From Candidatus Peregrinibacteria bacterium GW2011_GWF2_43_17 (lineage in GTDB: Bacteria > Patescibacteriota > Gracilibacteria > UBA1369 > UBA12470): a DNA stretch of 64,000 nucleotides. Position 1 is the first letter of the stretch. Each line of letters begins with the position of its first letter. The position numbers and the translations under genes are program-made. The notes beneath the pieces were generated by a model, which was not told the DNA's origin, did no database searches, and saw only the letters and a list, made by a program, of their open reading frames with translations. The stretch spans positions 1 to 64,000 of the forward strand of contig LCFW01000001.1 in the NCBI GenBank assembly GCA_000999315.1, read 5' to 3'. Shown here one piece after another: positions 30,101 through 41,458 of this stretch.

Positions 30101-30129
30101 TTAACACGAATCTTGTTTTCAGGTATAAT
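30101..30129 (+). promoter_or_regulatory. Strong sigma70-type promoter of the surface cluster
   Basis: TTAACA (30101-30106), 17-bp spacer, TATAAT (30124-30129), 28 bp before ATG 30157. The rest of the 275-bp gap (29882-30156) shows only A/T-rich sequence. Confidence 0.75.
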
Positions 30130-30156: not shown

Positions 30157-33093
30157 ATGTCGATCATTGGCGGTTTAAATAACAATAAGGGAACGAAAGT
30201 ATCATATGGGGTGATACTTGTTATTGGTATTTTCGTCATTTTCTCTTTTGTTGTGCTTGGCGGTAATCGCATATTGCAACTTCCCATTCGGGACTTTTCC
30301 GGTGTCGATCATATTCACGTTGTTGCCAGTCCTTTGATTTCCGTTTCGGATGGCGAGCATGTTTTTGTAAGGACTTCGGAAGAGTTTAAAGATAATTATT
30401 CAGAGATCAGCCTGACCTCTCTAAAATTGAATGTGTATGCCCTGGAAGTTTATATTTACGGTGCCGGCGATTCTTTGATCGGTACAACATTCGGGTCGAT
30501 CATTATTCCCGTTGAAATTTCACCGGTTATGCGAATTGTTGCGATAGCCTTGTTTATGATTGTGTTTCTGATTTTTTTGTATAAAAAACCCAAAATCGAG
30601 CTGCTTGTTCTCAGGACGGCAATGGTGGGTAGTTTCATTATGCTTTGTATGATGCTTATCGTAGTAAAAATCGGCATAACGCCGACTTATTCGAGCGATA
30701 CCTCTTTCGATGTTGGCGATGTGAATTCTTTACAATTCGATGAGTTGGTTGTCGATATGGAGGAGGATATACAGGAGCCGATATCCGAGCCGGTGGAAAG
30801 TACGGATATTGTTGAGGAAGTGACGGAAGAAGCGAGTGAAGAGGTCGAGTTGGATAAAGAAGTTAAACAAGACGAACCAGTGGAAAGCACAGAGATTGTT
30901 TCGGATGTTGTTGAGGAAGTGACGGAAGAAGCGAGTGAAGAGGTCGAACAAGATTTAACTGCCGAGAGTGATGAGGACTGGTTATCGGAAATATCTTTTG
31001 AGCAAGATGAACTTGGTGTGTGCCTTGATACGGTTCTGGAGATGTGGCAAAAAACAGATGCTGTTGATGAGGAGTTATCCTTGGTTGGCAAGTTGCAAAA
31101 TCATGTAGATAATTTAACGGCATTTTTGTTGAAAGGGATGTTGATGGTGGACGTCTTGGACGTTAATGGTAAAACATCCAAGCTTGAGAAAAAAATCGAG
31201 AAGGTTTTGGCAACCGAAAGCGATGATATAACGGAAAATGTTGAAGAATCCGATAAAAAAGTTTCGAAACAAAGTGAGGAGGAAAAGTCCGAAGAAAATT
31301 CGACCGGAACAGGTTTCTCGGAGAAGGATGTTGAAGTTTCCGAACAAATTATAGAAGCGGAAGAAGCGAATGAGCTGACGGGAAGTGGCTATGTCGTTGA
31401 AGACGCAGAGGAAGATGAATTGACAGGGAGCGGCTACGCGGCTGAAATTGTTGAAGAGGTTGAGGAGGAAAAGTCCGAAGAAAATTCGACCGGAACAGGT
31501 TTCTCGGAGAAGGATGTTGAAGTTTCCGAACAAATTATAGAAGCGGAAGAAACGAATGAGCTGACGGGAAGCGGCTATGTCGTTGAAGACGCAGAGGAAG
31601 ATGTTTTCGATGTTGACGATTTTCTGGCGGGATATGATGGTCCGGAGGAGTTTCTGAGGGGCTTGTTCGGGCTTGAGAATCTCGATGATTGCGCGGCGGT
31701 GTTCAATGCCGTCAACGAGCGGTCCGATTACGGCGAGTTTGTCGGTTGGCTGAACTCTTTTTTGGAGATGGTATCGTCGGATGAAGATATTAAAGAAGAT
31801 GATATGGAGGATGTCGAAGTTTCAATTTTGGATGTAAATATTTTGCCGAATCCTGTATTTCTCGATTCGCAATTGAGTGTTGATTATATTCAACTGGATA
31901 ATGACGTGGATGGTGTTAATTTCGAGTATCAATGGCAGAAAAAAAACGTTGACGAAGATTCTTATGCGGCGAATTTTTCCAACAAGAAAATGTTTGAAAG
32001 TTTGGAACTGAACGGGTCCGATTATTTTTACGATCCCGAGAAAATTGATATTGGTTTCTCTTTTGATTTTTATGGGCAAACTTATAATGAATTGTATTTA
32101 TCGAAACAAGGCTTTGCGAGTTTTTCGGAAATACCGGATGGTTATGTGGCGGATTCCGAAATCGATATGCCGATAATCGCTCCATTCTTGGTTTATGAAG
32201 ATATTTTTAATTCGAGAGAAACTTATATAGAGGTTCAAACTATCGGTTCGGAGGGTGAGCGCGAAGTCGTGGTGCAGTGGCATTTTGTTACCGGCGATCT
32301 TTGCGAGGAGTTTTTGATGCAATTGCATTTGTATGAAAAAGACGACTCGATATCGTTCCATTACGAGAAGAGTTTTGATTTCGTTAAGTCTTACGGTGTT
32401 TTCGTGGGTCTTAAATATGGTGACCGATTCGAATTTGTTATCGATGGCGATAAAGTTATTAACAGTTTCCGTTCAATTGTTATAACTCGCGAGTCCGGAT
32501 TTGAGTTTGAGGATATCGTCGGGCAACAAAGTTCCGTTTTGACGGAGGTTCTTGCATGCGATTGGGATTACAGGGCCGTCTTGACGCCTTACGGTGACCA
32601 TATTCATGGTGATACTTTTCATACCGCTTCCGTTACTCCGTTGTGTGAAGATTCCGGTGTTGACGAGCCGATTTCGGAAGATGATGTTGCCTGGTACGAT
32701 TTGAGCGCTGTCCAGTTCAGGACTTATCCCGATGGTGAGAGGGTTGCCGTTCGGGGCTATGATCAGGTTTTGGGGATCTCGCTTGTCGATGAGATCGGAC
32801 TTGAAGTGTTTTCCGGCACCAAAAGCTTTTATTTGACGGTCGGTTCGTTTATTGGCAGAAATAATGCGGAGAATACGATTGGCGTTGAAAATGTTTCTCT
32901 TTATATCGGTGAGGACGAGATTGTTGGAACCATAGATGGTGACAATAAATATTTCCAATTCGATCCTCAGCTTGCCATGACGGCTTATAACGAGAATGAA
33001 ATTGTCAGTTTGAGGATTTTGTTTGATTCCAACAGGGGTCAAGATATTTACGATATAAATATTAGTTATGGAATCGTTGAGAATGTTCAGTAA
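30157..33093 (+). CDS. Large membrane-anchored surface protein with acidic repeats and nidogen-like domain
   Basis: 978 residues. Membrane spans lie at about 17-37, 123-141 and 150-170. Residues 185-480 are extremely acidic and repetitive: EEVTEEASEEVE twice, and a 62-residue unit with STGTGFSEKDVEVSEQIIEA and ELTGSGY motifs duplicated. The C-terminal 430 residues are beta-rich; about 610-760 resemble a nidogen/NIDO-like extracellular domain (IGFSFDFYGQTYNELYLSKQ, then APFLVYEDIF). It is the first gene after a strong promoter and leads the dockerin- and cohesin-like genes, so a scaffold or adhesin role is inferred. The repeat block is prone to length change. Confidence 0.7.
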   Translation: MSIIGGLNNNKGTKVSYGVILVIGIFVIFSFVVLGGNRILQLPIRDFSGVDHIHVVASPLISVSDGEHVFVRTSEEFKDNYSEISLTSLKLNVYALEVYIYGAGDSLIGTTFGSIIIPVEISPVMRIVAIALFMIVFLIFLYKKPKIELLVLRTAMVGSFIMLCMMLIVVKIGITPTYSSDTSFDVGDVNSLQFDELVVDMEEDIQEPISEPVESTDIVEEVTEEASEEVELDKEVKQDEPVESTEIVSDVVEEVTEEASEEVEQDLTAESDEDWLSEISFEQDELGVCLDTVLEMWQKTDAVDEELSLVGKLQNHVDNLTAFLLKGMLMVDVLDVNGKTSKLEKKIEKVLATESDDITENVEESDKKVSKQSEEEKSEENSTGTGFSEKDVEVSEQIIEAEEANELTGSGYVVEDAEEDELTGSGYAAEIVEEVEEEKSEENSTGTGFSEKDVEVSEQIIEAEETNELTGSGYVVEDAEEDVFDVDDFLAGYDGPEEFLRGLFGLENLDDCAAVFNAVNERSDYGEFVGWLNSFLEMVSSDEDIKEDDMEDVEVSILDVNILPNPVFLDSQLSVDYIQLDNDVDGVNFEYQWQKKNVDEDSYAANFSNKKMFESLELNGSDYFYDPEKIDIGFSFDFYGQTYNELYLSKQGFASFSEIPDGYVADSEIDMPIIAPFLVYEDIFNSRETYIEVQTIGSEGEREVVVQWHFVTGDLCEEFLMQLHLYEKDDSISFHYEKSFDFVKSYGVFVGLKYGDRFEFVIDGDKVINSFRSIVITRESGFEFEDIVGQQSSVLTEVLACDWDYRAVLTPYGDHIHGDTFHTASVTPLCEDSGVDEPISEDDVAWYDLSAVQFRTYPDGERVAVRGYDQVLGISLVDEIGLEVFSGTKSFYLTVGSFIGRNNAENTIGVENVSLYIGEDEIVGTIDGDNKYFQFDPQLAMTAYNENEIVSLRILFDSNRGQDIYDINISYGIVENVQ
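31276..31602 (+). repeat. 141-bp in-frame direct duplication (186-bp period)
   Basis: 31276-31416 is repeated almost exactly at 31462-31602, with only a few substitutions. A second, shorter direct repeat (38 bp identical, 99-bp period) lies at 30811-30848 and 30910-30947. Both keep the reading frame. Confidence 0.85.
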
Positions 33094-34390
33094 AAAATTC
33101 GGCATAGTACTGATTGTGATTTTTTTGGGAATATTTCTTGTTGTTGGAGTTGGTCACGATAATTTCTTATTAAAACTGCTTAAAGACGATGTTGCTTTTA
33201 CCGTTGTCGGTGTCACTCTATCTCCCGATACCACGCCTCCGGATACTCCTTTGGTATCGGTTTATTCCACATTGTGTGACAGTGTTGCGGGGGAAGTAAT
33301 TTTAATGATAACAAGCGAATACGATGCCGATATTTATATCAATGATCAGTATGTGGATACGGTTGAAGATTCGAATGGTGTTATGTACGCTACTCTTCCC
33401 CTGTCCGACGGGCTTAACTATTTTACGATTTACGCGATTGATCCCTATGACAACAGGTCCCTTTCCACCGAAATCTTAGTGCAATGCGGTTCCGGTGGCG
33501 GTACGAGTGGCGGTACGAGTGGCGGTACGAGTGGCGGTGGTGCAGGTGGAACCAGGTTTGATGGCGGATCCGACGGTGGTGGTGGCACTGATGATGGTGA
33601 ACCTGGTGATGGCGGATCCGACGGTGGTGGTGGCACTGATGATGGTGAACCTGGTGATGGCGGTACCGACGGTGGTGGTAGTGGCACTGATGATGGTGAA
33701 CCTGGTGGTGGCGGTACCGACGGTGGTGGTCCTCAAGAATATCCCGATATATCAGAGCCTTATTTTGGAGATCAAGATTGGGTTTGGGATGAATCAAGCT
33801 CGATCTGGTATGATTCGGATTTTATTGAAACGGTTTATGATGGTGACGGGAAGGTGTCTTTCGATTGGAGTAAATTTCAATGGCAGGATTACGGATGGTC
33901 GTATTCCGGGTGGGAGGAACAAAGCGATGATGTTGCAGATCCCGTTTTTAGTGTGAACGAATATGTTGCCACTTCAAATTGGGAATTTTACGAGGGAAGT
34001 TTCAGTATTTACGGGCATGATCAAGAAAGTGTCGTTGTACAAGGGGACTTCTTGTTCGGTGATTATGCGTGGCAACAGCAGTATATAGGATTGTCTCCGG
34101 GTATGTACGATGTCGCGATTAATCCAAAAGCCGCTCTTACCGTAATTATAAGAAGTGTGGAAATACGGCAAGATGTTGTCGTTTATAATTTCGGAGATAA
34201 TTTCGAAGTAGTGCTTGGCGATTTGTATGATGATAATGTTATCAATGCTCTTGATATGGCCGTTATGATTGACGAATATCAATCCGAGGGTGATTATATT
34301 TCGGATTTAACCGGAGACAGCGTCATCAATTCTCTGGATTTGGCAATTTTAATTTCCAATTACTATATGCAAGGTGATGATTCTATGTAA
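33068..34390 (+). CDS. Secreted/anchored protein with Gly-rich repeats and C-terminal dockerin-like domain
   Basis: 440 residues. A signal anchor (about 11-28) precedes an Ig/fibronectin-like domain (about 55-140). Next is a Gly/Asp/Glu repeat linker (about 142-222, unit GGSDGGGGTDDGEPGD), then an aromatic-rich beta domain (about 225-375). The last 60 residues contain two tandem EF-hand-like repeats, GDLYDDNVINALDMAVMIDE and SDLTGDSVINSLDLAILISN, with the spacing of type I dockerins; calcium positions 3 are Tyr and Thr. The first start overlaps the preceding gene by 26 bp; ATG 33083 is an alternative. The next gene encodes a cohesin-like protein. Confidence 0.75.
   Translation: MESLRMFSKKFGIVLIVIFLGIFLVVGVGHDNFLLKLLKDDVAFTVVGVTLSPDTTPPDTPLVSVYSTLCDSVAGEVILMITSEYDADIYINDQYVDTVEDSNGVMYATLPLSDGLNYFTIYAIDPYDNRSLSTEILVQCGSGGGTSGGTSGGTSGGGAGGTRFDGGSDGGGGTDDGEPGDGGSDGGGGTDDGEPGDGGTDGGGSGTDDGEPGGGGTDGGGPQEYPDISEPYFGDQDWVWDESSSIWYDSDFIETVYDGDGKVSFDWSKFQWQDYGWSYSGWEEQSDDVADPVFSVNEYVATSNWEFYEGSFSIYGHDQESVVVQGDFLFGDYAWQQQYIGLSPGMYDVAINPKAALTVIIRSVEIRQDVVVYNFGDNFEVVLGDLYDDNVINALDMAVMIDEYQSEGDYISDLTGDSVINSLDLAILISNYYMQGDDSM
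33498..33730 (+). repeat. Tandem Gly-rich coding repeats
   Basis: Three 12-bp units (GGTACGAGTGGC) are followed by a 48-bp unit at 33560-33607, 33608-33655 and 33656-33706 (with 3 extra bases) and a partial fourth. All are in frame and encode a flexible linker. Such tracts expand and contract by slippage. Confidence 0.85.
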
Positions 34391-34404
34391 ATAATTAAAT
34401 AAAT

Positions 34405-35451
34405 ATGAAAACAAAAATAATGTCTTTTATCAAGTATATGTCGTGGAGGTTGCCGATTGCCATGTTTATTATTGTAAGTTTTGTGCCAAATGCCGCGGCG
34501 GCAAGGTTTTATCTTGAGAGTGTTACCGACATGGTTCAAGGCTGTCCCGCTACGGTTGCCGTCATGATCGATACGGAGAATTCCGATGTTTTGGCGGCCG
34601 ATATGGCGATTACTTACGATGCCGATGAGCTTATGCCGAGCGAAATCAGAGTGGGGGATGCTTTACCCATGCAAGTTTTCAATCAAATTACCGGTGATCA
34701 AATTCAATTTAGCGCTTCGAGAGAGCCTGTAACCGGTAGTTTCAACGGCGTTGGGATTTTTGGATATATTGATTTCGTTGCCGGATATGCCGACGGCGGA
34801 AATTTTCTTTTTTCATCCGATTTGGAATTCGATAATGTTATTGCAAGCTCAAACATCGTGAATGTTATTACGGGAATCGAGAGTATGCTGTTCCAGTTTA
34901 GAGATAGGTACAACGTTGACGTGGATGGTGTCGGTTTTTGTACGGTTGATGCCATTCCTCCGACAGTTTCCCCGATCAGTCCCGCGGATTTGTCGGTCGG
35001 CAATGCTCTCGATACGGATGTGGTTTTTTCTTTGGAGGATGATCGTGTCGGTGTTGATATGGATACATTAAACTTTACCATAGACGGGATTTCTTATGAT
35101 CGGTTATCGGATCAAGTTAATATAACGGAGGATGACGGGGTTTTCCTTGTGGAAGCGAATCCCGATGCGAATTTCGATTTGGGCAAAGATATTGTCGTGA
35201 GTGTATATGTTTGCGACAACAATGACGAGCCCGACCCGAATTGCGTCACCGACAGTTACAGCTTTATTGCCGATAAAGATTTGTTGTCGGAGCCGGTTGC
35301 CAAAATTGTTGAATTCGAAAAATTGCACGGAAGTTCCAATGATTGTTGCGACACCTGCGCGCAAATATTGTTTCCGTGGTGGATATTATTGATATTGCTG
35401 GTATTGTTGATTTCGAGTTGGCTTTATATTTTAAAACTTAAATCCAAATGA
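34405..35451 (+). CDS. Membrane-anchored cohesin-like protein
   Basis: 348 residues. A signal peptide ending near PNAAAA is followed by a cohesin-like beta-sandwich at about 35-170 (TVAVMIDTENSDVLAADMAI, YDADELMPSEIRVGDALP, then GVGIFGYIDFVAG), matching the cohesin order of strands. A second Ig-like domain spans about 187-298. The tail has CCDTC, a membrane span (WWILLILLVLLISSWLYILK) and a basic end, which anchors the protein with its domains outside. Adjacent to a dockerin-like protein, it may be the receptor of that partner. It overlaps the next gene by 4 bp. Confidence 0.72.
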   Translation: MKTKIMSFIKYMSWRLPIAMFIIVSFVPNAAAARFYLESVTDMVQGCPATVAVMIDTENSDVLAADMAITYDADELMPSEIRVGDALPMQVFNQITGDQIQFSASREPVTGSFNGVGIFGYIDFVAGYADGGNFLFSSDLEFDNVIASSNIVNVITGIESMLFQFRDRYNVDVDGVGFCTVDAIPPTVSPISPADLSVGNALDTDVVFSLEDDRVGVDMDTLNFTIDGISYDRLSDQVNITEDDGVFLVEANPDANFDLGKDIVVSVYVCDNNDEPDPNCVTDSYSFIADKDLLSEPVAKIVEFEKLHGSSNDCCDTCAQILFPWWILLILLVLLISSWLYILKLKSK

Positions 35452-35990
35452 AAAAGAAGATTTGTTTCATTTGGATTGCGGCTCAAGCTTGTTTATTTGT
35501 AACGGTTTTTATCGTTCATGCGCAAACCTGCGTCGGTGGTGGAGTGCTTTCCATTAATTCCGTACCCGTTTTGGAAAGTTTCGGGTCAGCGAATGTTGAC
35601 GTATACGATCAGGAATTGATCCATGTCTTTTCCGATTTTGTGCAGTTTGAAGATTCCAGAGCCGTCGCGCAAAGTTTTACTCTTTATGTCTCAGTTACGG
35701 ATTTCGATGCCATATCTGTTGAAAATATTTCTATTATAAGCGATGAAGACGATATTATCGATTATAACGCGGAATGCGATAATGTAGAGGGCATTACGCT
35801 TCAGCACACTTCGTTTTCTTCATTTGTTGATACGGATAACGATGGGGTCTCTGACAATAAGGCGTTGGTTGTTGGTGATGACAGAACAAGAGTTGGCAAT
35901 TATTCAATAAAACCCAAAATCAAACTTGTTGTTCCTGGTTCGTTATTGGCCGGTAATTACTCCTCGACTTTAACTTTTTCTATAATTTGA
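35448..35990 (+). CDS. Secreted WxL-like protein (FxL variant)
   Basis: 180 residues with a signal peptide ending VHAQ. The fold of WxL surface domains is recognisable by its two landmark segments: FEDSRAVAQSFTLYVSV, where WxL proteins have sDxRxxxxGWxLxxs, and PGSLLAGNYSSTLTFSI, where they have PxxxxxGxYxsxLTWxL. Both tryptophans are Phe (Phe77, Phe177). Between them is DTDNDGVSDN, a thrombospondin type 3-like calcium loop. WxL domains attach non-covalently to Gram-positive cell walls and to DUF916 partners; three DUF916-like genes lie just downstream. Ends 11 bp into the convergent gene. Confidence 0.7.
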   Translation: MKKKICFIWIAAQACLFVTVFIVHAQTCVGGGVLSINSVPVLESFGSANVDVYDQELIHVFSDFVQFEDSRAVAQSFTLYVSVTDFDAISVENISIISDEDDIIDYNAECDNVEGITLQHTSFSSFVDTDNDGVSDNKALVVGDDRTRVGNYSIKPKIKLVVPGSLLAGNYSSTLTFSII

Positions 35991-36678
35991 TTTTTTTCTT
36001 GTTGTTTCTTTGATTCATGATCGTTACGAACAATCCCGCAATGATTATTATAAGCCCCGTTATTATATATTTGTAGTATGAGATTCCCGTTGTATTTGTT
36101 TTTGTCGCTTCTTTCATTTCCAATTCTTCCAGGAACTGTACGAACTCTTCTTTGTCCACCACTTCGACTTTTACCCGAAGACCGTTTCGTATGACGCTAT
36201 TGATCGAGGTTCCTCCTTCGCTGTTTTCCGATGCGGAGATCGCATCACTAACGATAGCGGAAACTCCGCCCCAATATGTTCCGGTTGCGGTACCTTCCGG
36301 CAAGGTGAATGTCAATGTGATTGTCCCATATTCTCCCGGTTCAACGGTTACGGTTTTTGTTGAAAGGACGCCCCATTTTCCTATATGGCTTTGTTCTTTA
36401 GTATCGTCGGATAATGCGAAAAACCCATCCACTTCGGTTGTATTGCTGGCATCGTTTACGGAAACCGCGTATGAGTGGGTTTCCTCCGATAAATTAACGA
36501 CAAGGAAATCGTCCGATACGGATTCTCCCGGGGCGACTTTCAATTCGATATAAGGCGATTCGTTGGTTACAAAATCATCTCTTTGCAGGGAGAATGTTCC
36601 CGCCAATGCGATTGGTATTAGCATGCTTAACGATGTGCCGATTACCAACATTCCGACGAGGATTCGTTTTTTTGACAT
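35980..36678 (-). CDS. DUF916/WxLIP-like membrane protein 1
   Basis: 232 residues: signal peptide (about 1-27), an Ig-like domain with the DUF916 pattern (PYIELKVAPGESVSDDFLVV, GKWGVLSTKTVTVEPGEYGT, LPEGTATGTYWGGVSA), a second strand-rich stretch, one membrane span at about 201-221 and a basic cytoplasmic tail. In Gram-positives DUF916 proteins bind peptidoglycan and WxL proteins. Third of three paralogues in a row on this strand (12-bp gap upstream). Confidence 0.75.
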   Translation of the reverse strand: MSKKRILVGMLVIGTSLSMLIPIALAGTFSLQRDDFVTNESPYIELKVAPGESVSDDFLVVNLSEETHSYAVSVNDASNTTEVDGFFALSDDTKEQSHIGKWGVLSTKTVTVEPGEYGTITLTFTLPEGTATGTYWGGVSAIVSDAISASENSEGGTSINSVIRNGLRVKVEVVDKEEFVQFLEELEMKEATKTNTTGISYYKYIITGLIIIIAGLFVTIMNQRNNKKKIKL

Positions 36679-36690
36679 GTGAAAAACGGG

Positions 36691-37359
36691 TTAAAGTTTT
36701 TTAAAAAGCGATGGTTGTTGCGCGATTACGATAAAGATTAATGCGCCGATTGTTATTATTCCCGAATACAGCAAGTATTCCGGTACCTTGTTTCTTCCGA
36801 TCCATTTATCGTAGTGCTCTATTGTTCGAGGAGTATCGGTTACCGTAAGCAGGATTCTTGCTCCCGTTTCCAGCACGGTTACCAATTGCGTACCTTCTTC
36901 GTGAGGTACGACGTATGATCCAAACAATGCTCCGTAATATTCCTTATGGCTTGTGTTTTCCGGTATATCGATTTCGAAATTAACGGTTGTTTCTTCCTTG
37001 GGACCGAGTGTTATGATCGACTCGGATAACATTCCCCCCCACGAGCCTATATGTTCTTGAGTGTCATCATTGGTTTTCAAGGTGAAGTCTTTCAAGGTTG
37101 CTTCTTCCGTGGCGTCCGCAAATCTTAACGTGATTTCAACCGGCGTATTCTCGTAGTTTTTGATTATGAGGCTGTCCGAGATTTTCTCGCCGGGTTTTGC
37201 TTCATAGATGAACCAATAGGGATTCTCGGTATTCGGGTTGGTCGGTTTCAAGCCGATGCCTCCGGGGTTTCCTCGATCCGCGAAGACGTAAGCCAAAAGG
37301 CTTCCTATCAGAATCAATTCGATTATAACCAACAATATCAGTATTTTTTTTAATTTCAT
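36691..37359 (-). CDS. DUF916/WxLIP-like membrane protein 2
   Basis: 222 residues built like its neighbours: N-terminal signal anchor (about 6-26), an Ig-like domain with WFIYEAKPGEKISDSLIIKN, HIGSWGGMLSESIITLGPKE and IPENTSHKEYYGALFGSY, and a C-terminal membrane span (about 196-214). The conserved G-W-G and PGE motifs are shared with the 36678 protein, which shows paralogy. Second of the three; 12 bp after its upstream neighbour. Confidence 0.75.
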   Translation of the reverse strand: MKLKKILILLVIIELILIGSLLAYVFADRGNPGGIGLKPTNPNTENPYWFIYEAKPGEKISDSLIIKNYENTPVEITLRFADATEEATLKDFTLKTNDDTQEHIGSWGGMLSESIITLGPKEETTVNFEIDIPENTSHKEYYGALFGSYVVPHEEGTQLVTVLETGARILLTVTDTPRTIEHYDKWIGRNKVPEYLLYSGIITIGALIFIVIAQQPSLFKKL

Positions 37360-37371
37360 TTCAGTTGGTTT

Positions 37372-38532
37372 TTATTTTTTCGACGGTGGTATCAGTACTG
37401 TTGTTCCTTTGGGTATTTCGTAAGGCGCTTTGATTTTATTTATTTTCGCGAGCAGTTTCCAGTCCACATTGTTTGTTTTTGCAAGTTCCAGTACGCTCTC
37501 ATCTCGCGACACGATTACTCTTTTACAGTTTTTCACGAGTGTCTCTTTTTTCCTTTCTCTTCCGTAAAGTATTGCGAATACTATTAGGAACAGTATGAAG
37601 CTGACCAGTAGTTCTTTTACGGGTATGATAATGAAGGTTATTGTTTTCTCCAGTGTTTCTTTTTCCGAACCTTCTTGGTCATCTCCCGACAATTGCGATA
37701 ACAGTAGGGATTTTTCATATTCGATTTGCGTTGTCGCTTTGAAATAACCTATTATCGGCGGCGCTTCTTCCCAAAGCAATATGGTCGGTTCTATGGAGCT
37801 GTTACCCGGAGTTGCGTTTAAACTTGTTTCTATCGTTTCCGATGAGAAGATGCTTTCCAAGGTTACCGTTGCATTACTTGCCACTGTTACATTCCCATCG
37901 TTTTCCAGCGTGTAAGTCAAATAATGTTGACCGTTATCGTTTACGGAATGTTCATAACCGGTCCAGCTAAAGTCCATTATGACATCCCCTTTTACCGTTA
38001 TATACATTCGCACACCTATGTTGATAACACTTTTCACGCTGGCGCCGCCGGACGAGACATCCTCTTCGGTATTTTTCTCGTCGGTTCCCGGACCGATCAA
38101 GAATCCGCCCGCGTAATCTCCCGGGCTTGCGTTTTCGGGTACCGTTAAGGTGAAAGAGCCTTTTACTTTTTCACCCGCATCCACCGTCATTGCGGTGGAG
38201 TCGTTAATTGTTATCCATTCTTGAATTCCACCTTCGCTTATGCCACAACCCAGTAGCGCAAAAGCTCCCTCCGATGTTGTTGTCGCCGTGGAAGGACAGA
38301 TGATGATGTTTTGCGCGTAATCGGCTCCGTTATAAATTTCGAAAGTATCTTCGATTGTTTCTCCCGGATTTAATTCGTATGTAAACCATGAACTGATTTC
38401 ACGTTCTTTGTCGCTTGTCGGCATGATGCCCATACGTTCCTGAGCCATTGCCGGCTGACCGGTAATGCAAAATAATATTGTGGCAATCGCTCCCGCGTAT
38501 GCCAATTTGAAAATTCCTGTCGTCTTTTTCAT
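37372..38532 (-). CDS. DUF916/WxLIP-like membrane protein 3 with terminal LysM-like domain
   Basis: 386 residues: signal peptide ending AMAQ; DUF916-like domain (about 45-185; SWFTYELNPGETIEDTFEIY, LTVPENASPGDYAGGFLIGP); a second beta domain (about 186-280) like the second domain of WxL-interacting proteins; a membrane span at about 306-327; and a C-terminal LysM-like module (RVIVSRDESVLELAKTNNVD, then IPKGTTVLIPP). With an N-terminal cleaved signal and one span, the LysM module would face the cytoplasm, which is unexpected for a peptidoglycan-binding motif. First of the three paralogues. Confidence 0.75.
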   Translation of the reverse strand: MKKTTGIFKLAYAGAIATILFCITGQPAMAQERMGIMPTSDKEREISSWFTYELNPGETIEDTFEIYNGADYAQNIIICPSTATTTSEGAFALLGCGISEGGIQEWITINDSTAMTVDAGEKVKGSFTLTVPENASPGDYAGGFLIGPGTDEKNTEEDVSSGGASVKSVINIGVRMYITVKGDVIMDFSWTGYEHSVNDNGQHYLTYTLENDGNVTVASNATVTLESIFSSETIETSLNATPGNSSIEPTILLWEEAPPIIGYFKATTQIEYEKSLLLSQLSGDDQEGSEKETLEKTITFIIIPVKELLVSFILFLIVFAILYGRERKKETLVKNCKRVIVSRDESVLELAKTNNVDWKLLAKINKIKAPYEIPKGTTVLIPPSKK

Positions 38533-39017: not shown

Positions 39018-39602
39018 TTAAGATATGGAGTAAGTAATGGTTGACGTATATGTTCCCGCCGCTTGTGAGCCCGGGATTGTCACGTCTATGGTTGGTGTGA
39101 ACGTGCATGTGTCAACACGTACTACCGAAGTGTCTGCGGAGACTAAAGATTTGGCATCCGAGATTTCGCCTGTACCGGAGAACATTGCTACGGTGTTGTT
39201 TACTGTTACACCTGCAGTGCAGCCAGAGGATCCGACGGCTGTAAGAGTGGCATCGTTGTCACCGGACATTTCGAATTGTTGGTATGGGAAGTAATTCACC
39301 CCTGATGTGAAGTACTGAGCTGTGGCCACTAGAGAGTATCCGGCATTTGTAGATCTGAGATCTGAGAATTGTACCGGAGTGCTGAATGTTACGTCCCCAA
39401 GATCTTGAGAGCTGGTTGAAACGCTTGTGCCTGTGAAGTTAACGCTTGCAGGTACAGAATCGATCGTCAGTCCGGATATGCCTGAGATGACAACACTACT
39501 TGTCGTTTGCCCCGTTGTTGATGCGAAAGCGAAAGCGAAAAGCGTAACGTTTGCCATCAATGCGGCAACGATAACGAGGCCGCATAGTTTTTTGTTTTTC
39601 AT
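39018..39602 (-). CDS. Secreted WxL-like surface protein (YxL variant)
   Basis: 194 residues with a long signal peptide (cleavage near AFAS at about 28). The mature part is Ser/Thr-rich and beta-rich. WxL landmarks: FSDLRSTNAGYSLVATAQYF at 79-98 and IPGSQAAGTYTSTITYSIS at 176-194; the two WxL tryptophans are Tyr89 and Tyr191. Cys128 and Cys166 could form a disulfide. A perfect consensus promoter, a leader of about 105 nt and a dedicated terminator mark it as a highly expressed single gene, probably the main surface subunit recognised by the neighbouring DUF916-like proteins. Confidence 0.78.
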   Translation of the reverse strand: MKNKKLCGLVIVAALMANVTLFAFAFASTTGQTTSSVVISGISGLTIDSVPASVNFTGTSVSTSSQDLGDVTFSTPVQFSDLRSTNAGYSLVATAQYFTSGVNYFPYQQFEMSGDNDATLTAVGSSGCTAGVTVNNTVAMFSGTGEISDAKSLVSADTSVVRVDTCTFTPTIDVTIPGSQAAGTYTSTITYSIS

Positions 39603-39742: not shown

Positions 39743-39811
39743 TGCGGTATAATGGTAAATTTCCAACCGGTCTGTCAAAATAATTTTCTCGATTTTTTAA
39801 TCCAATCAATT

Positions 39812-41458
39812 ATGTCAGCCATGAATCCTGAATCGTTTCAAATGTCGGGATCGAAGCTGATGCGCTTGGCGGGAACTTGTTTGGTTATGAGCGGTTGCGG
39901 TGTTCCCGATCAAGGACCCGGACGTGCACCGCTTTCATTGGTTGAGGGGAATCGCGGAATAGAAATATACGATGTGGGTATGGCGTCTCATGTAACGGTT
40001 CCCGTTAAACAAGTTTACGTGCGCGATCTCGCGGGACTTACCGATGAGAACTTGGGTTCTTTGCCGTTTGAGCTTCAAGAATTATTGAAAGGTCCGAGAC
40101 AACAGGTTAGTCTTTTATTGCATGATGGAGATTTTAGAGAAAAAGATGAAAACGGAGATACGGTTGTTCATTACAGAGTCGGTATGCGTCTTGACGATAG
40201 CGGTTCGTCTCCGGTTCCTCCGGCACCGTTTGTCCAGTTTGTGCTGGAAGAAGGTATTGTTGCTAACGAAGTGACGCCCGATAGCAATCCGAACTTGGCG
40301 ATATGCGATGGTTGCGATCTTGTTTATCCCGCCGTCGCGCATCGTTTGAACGAGGAAACCGGAGAAACGGAAGCGTATCACATGGTTAGCGTAATGGGTG
40401 GTGATTTTTCGGAGTGTTCTTACGAGCCTTATATAAATGGGGAGCGTGTATGGGATCCCGTGTATGAAAATTGTGCGATTGTCAGTTGGCAACTTGATCG
40501 GAGCGAAGGCGCGGGCAGTGTGCCGCATAATACGCCGAACGGGGCGATGGCGTACAGTACTTATATGGAGCACGATGAAACGTTTACGACTTGCGGACGA
40601 GAAGATAATGTCGGATACCACGGTTCGTTTGCGATGGAACGTGGTAATACGGAAGAAGAGTTGTGTATTCCGGATTCCGAAACTCATACTTGGGAATCGT
40701 CTTTGAGTTTGGGTAATAATTCTCTCGATGTTTTGTTTTCGCCTCCCGAAGGTGATATGACCACGGCCGAGGGAGACGGAGTTGAAGCGCTGACAACCGG
40801 ATATCACAATGTGTTTTCCAATAACGAGATGTTGGAATGTGCGCGCAGTAGATTCCTTTTTGCCGGCGATGCCATGGAACAATTATCCGTTTATGATCCG
40901 GGTACGCCTTCTTCGGGCAATGACATGCATTGCCTTCGTCCGATACAGAATCATGATGGCGATATAATGGGGATAAGATTTGAAGCGGACAGTACGTTGG
41001 GCTGGCCGCTTGATAATGAATGGTACGCTCAATTTGCTAATTTGAGTACCGGTCAAGTGTTATTGAATGTCACTTCAAATCGCACGTTGCCGGAAACGGG
41101 AACCGATTTTTGCGGTAATGTGGCTTATATATCCGCTGTTAACGAGAGCGGAGTCAAAGTTTTATATGAAGTTTATCCGGAGGATAATCCGCCCGCGGAG
41201 TGTGATTTGAGGGGCGAAATTGTTGATACGGGCGATACAGGTGATACCGGCGAGATCGTTGATACTGCGGATACGGATGATACAGGTGATATTGTTGATA
41301 CGTCGGATACCGATAATGTTGTTGATACTGCGGATACTGGGAAAACCAACGACGATGAAGGTTGCGATTGCGGTTCGTCACATTTAAACGGAGCGGGATT
41401 GTCACCCTTGTTGCTTGGGTTTGCCGCACTTATAAGGAGAAAGCTCTACCGAATTTGA
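39812..41458 (+). CDS. Lipoprotein with DTGD linker and MYXO-CTERM-like tail
   Basis: 548 residues from ATG 39812 (ATG 39821 also possible; the frame is open to 39752 through a TATAAT box). A lipobox LVMSGC lies at about 23-28. The body (about 35-460) is Cys-containing, beta-rich and unrecognised. A Thr/Asp linker (VDTGDTGDTGE, DTADTDDTGD and similar, about 468-520) leads to a C-terminus with DEGCDCGSS, a hydrophobic stretch (SPLLLGFAALI) and RRK. This is the tripartite layout of MYXO-CTERM sorting signals of myxobacteria. Having both a lipobox and such a tail is odd. It ends 13 bp into the convergent gene. Confidence 0.7.
   Translation: MSAMNPESFQMSGSKLMRLAGTCLVMSGCGVPDQGPGRAPLSLVEGNRGIEIYDVGMASHVTVPVKQVYVRDLAGLTDENLGSLPFELQELLKGPRQQVSLLLHDGDFREKDENGDTVVHYRVGMRLDDSGSSPVPPAPFVQFVLEEGIVANEVTPDSNPNLAICDGCDLVYPAVAHRLNEETGETEAYHMVSVMGGDFSECSYEPYINGERVWDPVYENCAIVSWQLDRSEGAGSVPHNTPNGAMAYSTYMEHDETFTTCGREDNVGYHGSFAMERGNTEEELCIPDSETHTWESSLSLGNNSLDVLFSPPEGDMTTAEGDGVEALTTGYHNVFSNNEMLECARSRFLFAGDAMEQLSVYDPGTPSSGNDMHCLRPIQNHDGDIMGIRFEADSTLGWPLDNEWYAQFANLSTGQVLLNVTSNRTLPETGTDFCGNVAYISAVNESGVKVLYEVYPEDNPPAECDLRGEIVDTGDTGDTGEIVDTADTDDTGDIVDTSDTDNVVDTADTGKTNDDEGCDCGSSHLNGAGLSPLLLGFAALIRRKLYRI

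Follow-up and report, generated by a model that had tools for sequence, protein, structure and literature searches.

A predicted X-dockerin and membrane-anchored cohesin gene pair in a Peregrinibacteria genome and its recurrence in Patescibacteria

The present analysis concerns a 64,000-nucleotide stretch (hereafter the window; positions 1 to 64,000 of contig LCFW01000001.1, assembly GCA_000999315.1) from Candidatus Peregrinibacteria bacterium GW2011_GWF2_43_17, whose genome comprises 1.2 Mb in 16 contigs, and in it two neighboring genes that are named here by their start positions, 33068 and 34405. Their products probably constitute a dedicated, co-inherited X-dockerin/cohesin pair, in which a predicted plug-in contact would hold the dockerin protein at the cell surface. 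Both open reading frames (ORFs; 33068-34390 and 34405-35451) were confirmed; the dockerin gene more probably starts at ATG 33083 than at 33068. As judged by profile searches, the pair is not peculiar to the window genome and is spread through the phylum. What appears to be new here is this conserved non-cellulosomal X-dockerin/anchored-cohesin gene pair, non-cellulosomal cohesins and dockerins as such having long been known.

Domain identity of the dockerin and cohesin proteins

The C-terminus of 33068 carries two tandem 12-residue loops with the spacing D1...D5...N9..D12. A sequence-only reading of the window had described tandem EF-hand-like repeats with type I dockerin spacing at this place; the repeats and their spacing stand, the module being nearer to the X-dockerin dyads of scaffoldins than to a bare type I dockerin. 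The Dockerin_1 model (PF00404, curated cut-off of 22.9 bits) stays under its threshold on the full-length protein (20.3 bits) but exceeds it in the genome search (24.8 bits) and on the isolated X-dockerin part (26.2 bits). In searches of solved structures, a dockerin profile of 8 relatives matched PDB dockerins (best 5k39, 9.4e-7), and the top matches of an X-dockerin profile of 22 members were scaffoldin X-dockerin dyads with both modules aligned (E-values of 7.8e-11 for 4u3s_B, 8.8e-11 for 4wi0_B, 5.2e-9 for 5k39_B, and 6.9e-9 for 2b59_B), the alignment to 4u3s and 4wi0 covering about positions 34-154 of 159. Because these best matches are X-module–dockerin dyads over both modules, the module of 33068 is regarded as an X-dockerin and not as a bare dockerin of the enzyme type. 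The X-module part alone, in an 8-sequence profile, produced no significant match among solved structures. X-dockerins are the cellulosome modules that link to the cell surface, and the placement of the dockerin in an X-module dyad therefore indicates the surface-anchoring (type II) interaction as its closest cellulosomal counterpart, not enzyme docking. In 33068, loop 1 has Tyr at its third position instead of the usual Asn/Asp; this column holds Tyr, Val or Ile across the window branch, and other branches exhibit insertions there.

The downstream protein, 34405, begins with a signal peptide-like, cleavable-looking N-terminus. A cohesin profile of 19 family members matched exclusively cohesins among 177,635 PDB sequences down to E 10 (12/12 matches; best 1g1k, E 8.2e-5); all 10 matches of a 7-member profile were likewise cohesins, and with a 9-member profile cohesins ranked first, with unrelated matches appearing from E 0.58 on. 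Seven of the 19 family members are themselves matched by PF00963, the best at 2.9e-7. When the profile was aligned with profiles of Pfam-grade cohesins from the same order, scores of 23-29 in the correct register exceeded both 100 column shuffles (at most 18.6) and the reversed profile; since the hhalign probability was modest (8-40%), this line is used as supporting evidence only. Once the relatives are included, these profiles make it clear that 34405 carries a genuine, divergent cohesin. Together with the C-terminal helix and its basic tail, they bear out the earlier proposal of a cohesin-like domain outside the membrane with a C-terminal anchor. Both domains have profile support, PF00404 through the X-dockerin part and PF00963 by way of the relatives. 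Elsewhere, in family f11, the anchored cohesin protein has a length of ~1000 aa (L026:7571-10597); it contains TSP3 repeats, and SLH is matched weakly (E 0.0024).

Conservation of the pair and alternative readings

Among 28 X-dockerin genes detected at E <= 1e-15 with a readable downstream side, 26 have a cohesin gene immediately downstream on the same strand. The two others comprise G054, with the cohesin gene after one inserted gene, and G052, which is cut by a contig end with a 40-residue cohesin start still visible. G050 and G053 were left out of the count, their expected cohesin place being masked. Masked stretches downstream of X-dockerin genes, where a cohesin is expected, lie at L057:5010-8282 and L058:10106-13384. 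The order is fixed, the dockerin gene coming first with its dockerin C-terminal and the next protein bearing its cohesin N-terminal. The matched pair of neighbors that the sequence-only reading had suggested is thus recovered, both by profile and by conserved adjacency.

The model behind the count of 26 was iterated and partly trained on the loci scored; the two counts that follow are mostly out-of-sample. Loci elsewhere in the phylum were picked for X-dockerin presence, regardless of cohesin. A cohesin model built from 9 close relatives recognized the next same-strand gene in 12 of the first 13 phylum loci (one of the 12, L138, lies on the same contig as the training-set member L062), and the cohesin of the thirteenth, L148, was recognized by the iterated model. 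When 416 ORFs were scanned, the close-relative model yielded 32 matches, each of them adjacent to a dockerin, separated from one by a single gene, or fused to one. The pair loci span many Patescibacteria families; within the order, the cohesin was found in 9/89 genomes and full-length X-dockerins in ten. In a sample of 379 genomes, both profiles occurred in 81, the cohesin only in 31, and the dockerin only in 28 (odds ratio of 22, uncorrected for relatedness). The distances of the partner domains were also correlated (Mantel r 0.61, 0/5000 permutations). A scan of public genomes with a broad alignment returned no conserved stretch, and a narrower alignment led to five loci; NCBIfam holds no model for the pair. 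No description of an X-dockerin/anchored-cohesin pair in Peregrinibacteria or Patescibacteria was found in the literature, which is weak evidence, as few subscription papers were covered.

Several points weigh against the proposed pairing. Taken alone, 34405 reached 14.6 bits with PF00963 (E 0.038 over 39 residues), below the Pfam cut-off, and the usual ligand at position 3 of dockerin loop 1 is missing in the window branch. No function is recognized for the client part of 33068. Weaker dockerin matches are less often paired (23/56), many having no cohesin found next door, and a conserved neighborhood and correlated distances are also what common descent leads one to expect.

The window genome contains exactly one dockerin and one cohesin of the window type. 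On its contig C2 (175798-178070; L008:7799-10071) lies a second pair, in which an LTD-cohesin-fn3-dockerin protein of 480 aa is followed by a membrane-anchored cohesin of 249 aa. This second type is common in the order, with above-cut-off cohesins in 56/89 genomes and most dockerin matches adjoining them. The second pair speaks for a reading in which the domains are real without being each other's main partners, so that the cohesin of 34405 would bind a dockerin on some other protein, or both systems would cross-bind. We consider this rather unlikely, given that each pair is adjacent and that only one window-type dockerin is available in the genome. Loop positions 10-11 set specificity in cellulosomal dockerins; they are A-L and S-L in the window as against G-R and G-S (or G-K) in the second pair, a difference that points to, but does not prove, a lack of cross-binding. 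The window-type cohesin profile gave no significant score with the anchored cohesin of the second pair. A three-gene run at L062:2526-8694 encodes a dockerin protein, a cohesin-TSP3-dockerin protein and an anchored cohesin protein; short chains would therefore be possible in some species, this run being a possible adaptor chain.

The weak single-sequence matches, and the frequency of immunoglobulin-like (Ig-like) domains in these proteins, would also accommodate a generic bacterial Ig-like or adhesin domain as the beta-sandwich of 34405, with the EF-hand repeats as a calcium-stabilized tail and a coincidental neighborhood. This very improbable explanation is already largely refuted by family profiles that match only cohesins, and X-dockerins or dockerins, and by the adjacency in 26/28 loci. 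The genome search found no multi-cohesin scaffoldin, the three cohesin places each lying in their own reading frame, and no dockerin-bearing carbohydrate-active enzyme, neither of the two dockerin proteins having an enzyme domain by Pfam, in agreement with the earlier remark that cellulosomal enzymes are absent. A remnant of a cellulosome or another polysaccharide-degrading complex, from which dockerins and cohesins are best known, is thus the least credible account, with at most one cohesin per protein, enzyme-free dockerins, and a recurrence of the pair in small Patescibacteria genomes throughout the phylum.

Genomic setting of the pair

Four genes on one strand (30157, 33068, 34405 and 35448) form the run to which the pair belongs; neighbors in this run overlap or lie a 14-base gap apart, and 3' of it a converging cluster encodes three WxLIP homologues and one WxL-like protein (Table 1). 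The acidic protein 30157 is probably co-transcribed with the pair. The promoter-like site upstream of the run is suggestive by its position only, because such sites are no more numerous in the region than expected by chance. As a conserved third component, a role that the sequence-only reading had held open for it, 30157 was rejected: its relatives occur in 7 other genomes of the order, none beside the pair, and sit in WxL/WxLIP loci, the distance to WxLIP genes being about 10 kb or less in 5 of the 7 genomes.

Table 1. Positions of the predicted features around the dockerin and cohesin genes of the window
Feature	Position	Strand	Remark
Promoter-like site TTAACA-17-TATAAT, upstream of the four-gene run	30101..30129	+	11/12 matches
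Membrane protein of 978 aa, acidic (net charge -156); three hydrophobic stretches at the N-terminus	30157..33093	+	
Dockerin protein, 440 aa: signal/anchor helix, Ig-like part, Gly-rich linker, X-module, dockerin	33068..34390	+	
Glycine/aspartate-rich repetitive linker, ~half glycine	33488..33757	+	
X-module, beta-rich domain conserved directly 5' of the dockerin	33914..34207	+	
Dockerin, two calcium-loop repeats	34208..34381	+	
Calcium-binding loop 1, DLYDDNVINALD, position 3 atypical	34220..34255	+	
Calcium-binding loop 2, DLTGDSVINSLD	34304..34339	+	
Membrane-anchored cohesin protein, 348 aa	34405..35451	+	
Divergent cohesin domain, aa 33-169	34501..34911	+	
Ig-like domain after the cohesin; aligned relatives match Pfam Big_5/Big_13/Big_7	34945..35265	+	
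C-terminal transmembrane helix, aa 318-336, then basic tail; cohesin predicted outside the cell	35356..35412	+	
Small WxL-like protein, secreted; gene start overlapping the cohesin stop codon	35448..35990	+	WxL E 0.0098, below cut-off
WxLIP homologue	35980..36678	-	above PF06030 cut-off
WxLIP homologue	36691..37359	-	above PF06030 cut-off
WxLIP homologue; weak LysM match at the protein end, below cut-off	37372..38532	-	above PF06030 cut-off
Small WxL-like protein	39018..39602	-	WxL E 0.0012, below cut-off

Three window proteins pass the WxLIP cut-off and two match WxL below theirs. WxLIP was detected in 26/89 genomes of the order, family f14 having up to nine copies each. The pair is partly associated with WxL genes: clearly so in the window and in several genomes of family f11, and not visibly at many other loci. 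An envelope-assembly or adhesion role would fit this setting, because WxLIP proteins of Gram-positive bacteria are believed to keep WxL domains attached to peptidoglycan and to contact host cells (PMC10599100). Further downstream, at 39752-41458, the window encodes a protein with DTGDTGE-type repeats, the C-terminal tail of which weakly resembles MYXO-CTERM sorting signals (NCBIfam E 0.004, 0.25).

Predicted surface display and comparison with known systems

Starting from the observed domain identities, anchoring anatomy, gene order and conservation of the pair, we infer mutual binding, its calcium dependence and a surface-layer or adhesion role. The 33068 and 34405 proteins would both be exported. 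The C-terminal helix of the latter would keep it in the cytoplasmic membrane, its cohesin and Ig-like domain lying outside. The C-terminal X-dockerin of 33068 would plug into this cohesin in a presumably calcium-dependent manner, and the dockerin protein, with its Ig-like part and flexible Gly/Asp-rich linker, would be kept at the surface beside the WxL/WxLIP peptidoglycan-associated layer. The pair would work like the type II step of the cellulosome, X-dockerin to anchored cohesin, displaying non-enzymatic surface proteins.

In the clostridial type II systems (X-dockerins of CipA/ScaA with surface-anchored cohesins; 2b59, 3kcp, 4u3s, 4wi0, 5k39), as in the window pair, an X-module directly precedes the dockerin, and a calcium-loop dockerin is combined with a cohesin on a surface-anchored protein. 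The window differs by the lack of a multi-cohesin scaffoldin and of enzymes, by a strongly diverged cohesin, by an anchor that is a C-terminal membrane helix and not a sortase or clear SLH anchor, and by partners encoded in neighboring genes of fixed order. Archaeal cohesin and dockerin modules have been shown to bind specifically (PMC9012536), and a pair from Archaeoglobus fulgidus works as a display tool (PMC9705933); non-cellulosomal modules of A. fulgidus and other archaea are attributed in these two papers to Peer 2009 and Voronov-Goldman 2011. These archaeal systems are cellulosome-free like the window pair but belong to a different group of organisms, and no published phylum-wide, fixed dockerin-then-cohesin pair with an X-module was found. 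According to one proposal, dockerin/cohesin proteins of anaerobic methanotrophic (ANME) archaea fasten functional proteins to the outer cell layer and may mediate contact with bacteria (PMC9012536); these archaea exhibit multi-cohesin scaffoldin-like proteins and ABC-transporter binding proteins, whereas the window has one cohesin per protein. The pair adjoins a WxL-like and three WxLIP genes, resembling the WxL/WxLIP clusters of Gram-positive bacteria (PMC10599100), although no cohesin or dockerin was found described in known WxL clusters and the WxL domains of the window remain below the Pfam cut-off.

Since the pair recurs across Patescibacteria without enzymes, it is probably a general way to hang proteins on the cell surface. 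More tentatively, and with slightly less than even confidence, the X-dockerin/membrane-cohesin couple may represent a self-contained device that Patescibacteria use generally for surface display. One cell would hold mutually orthogonal pairs, each specific to its locus, some species would have chains as at L062, and the device would mount the adhesins or envelope proteins on which the life of these epibionts depends. The cultivated Saccharibacterium Southlakia epibionticum has an essential protein with a dockerin domain, SEML1_0315 (PMC10633639); if this protein belongs to the family described here, the module may bear directly on the epibiotic life style. The module further provides new cohesin-dockerin pairs that may be orthogonal. 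For cells whose genomes measure about 1 Mb, the recurring plug-and-socket gene pair offers a concrete, testable answer to the question of how Patescibacteria fix proteins to their surface and attach to hosts.

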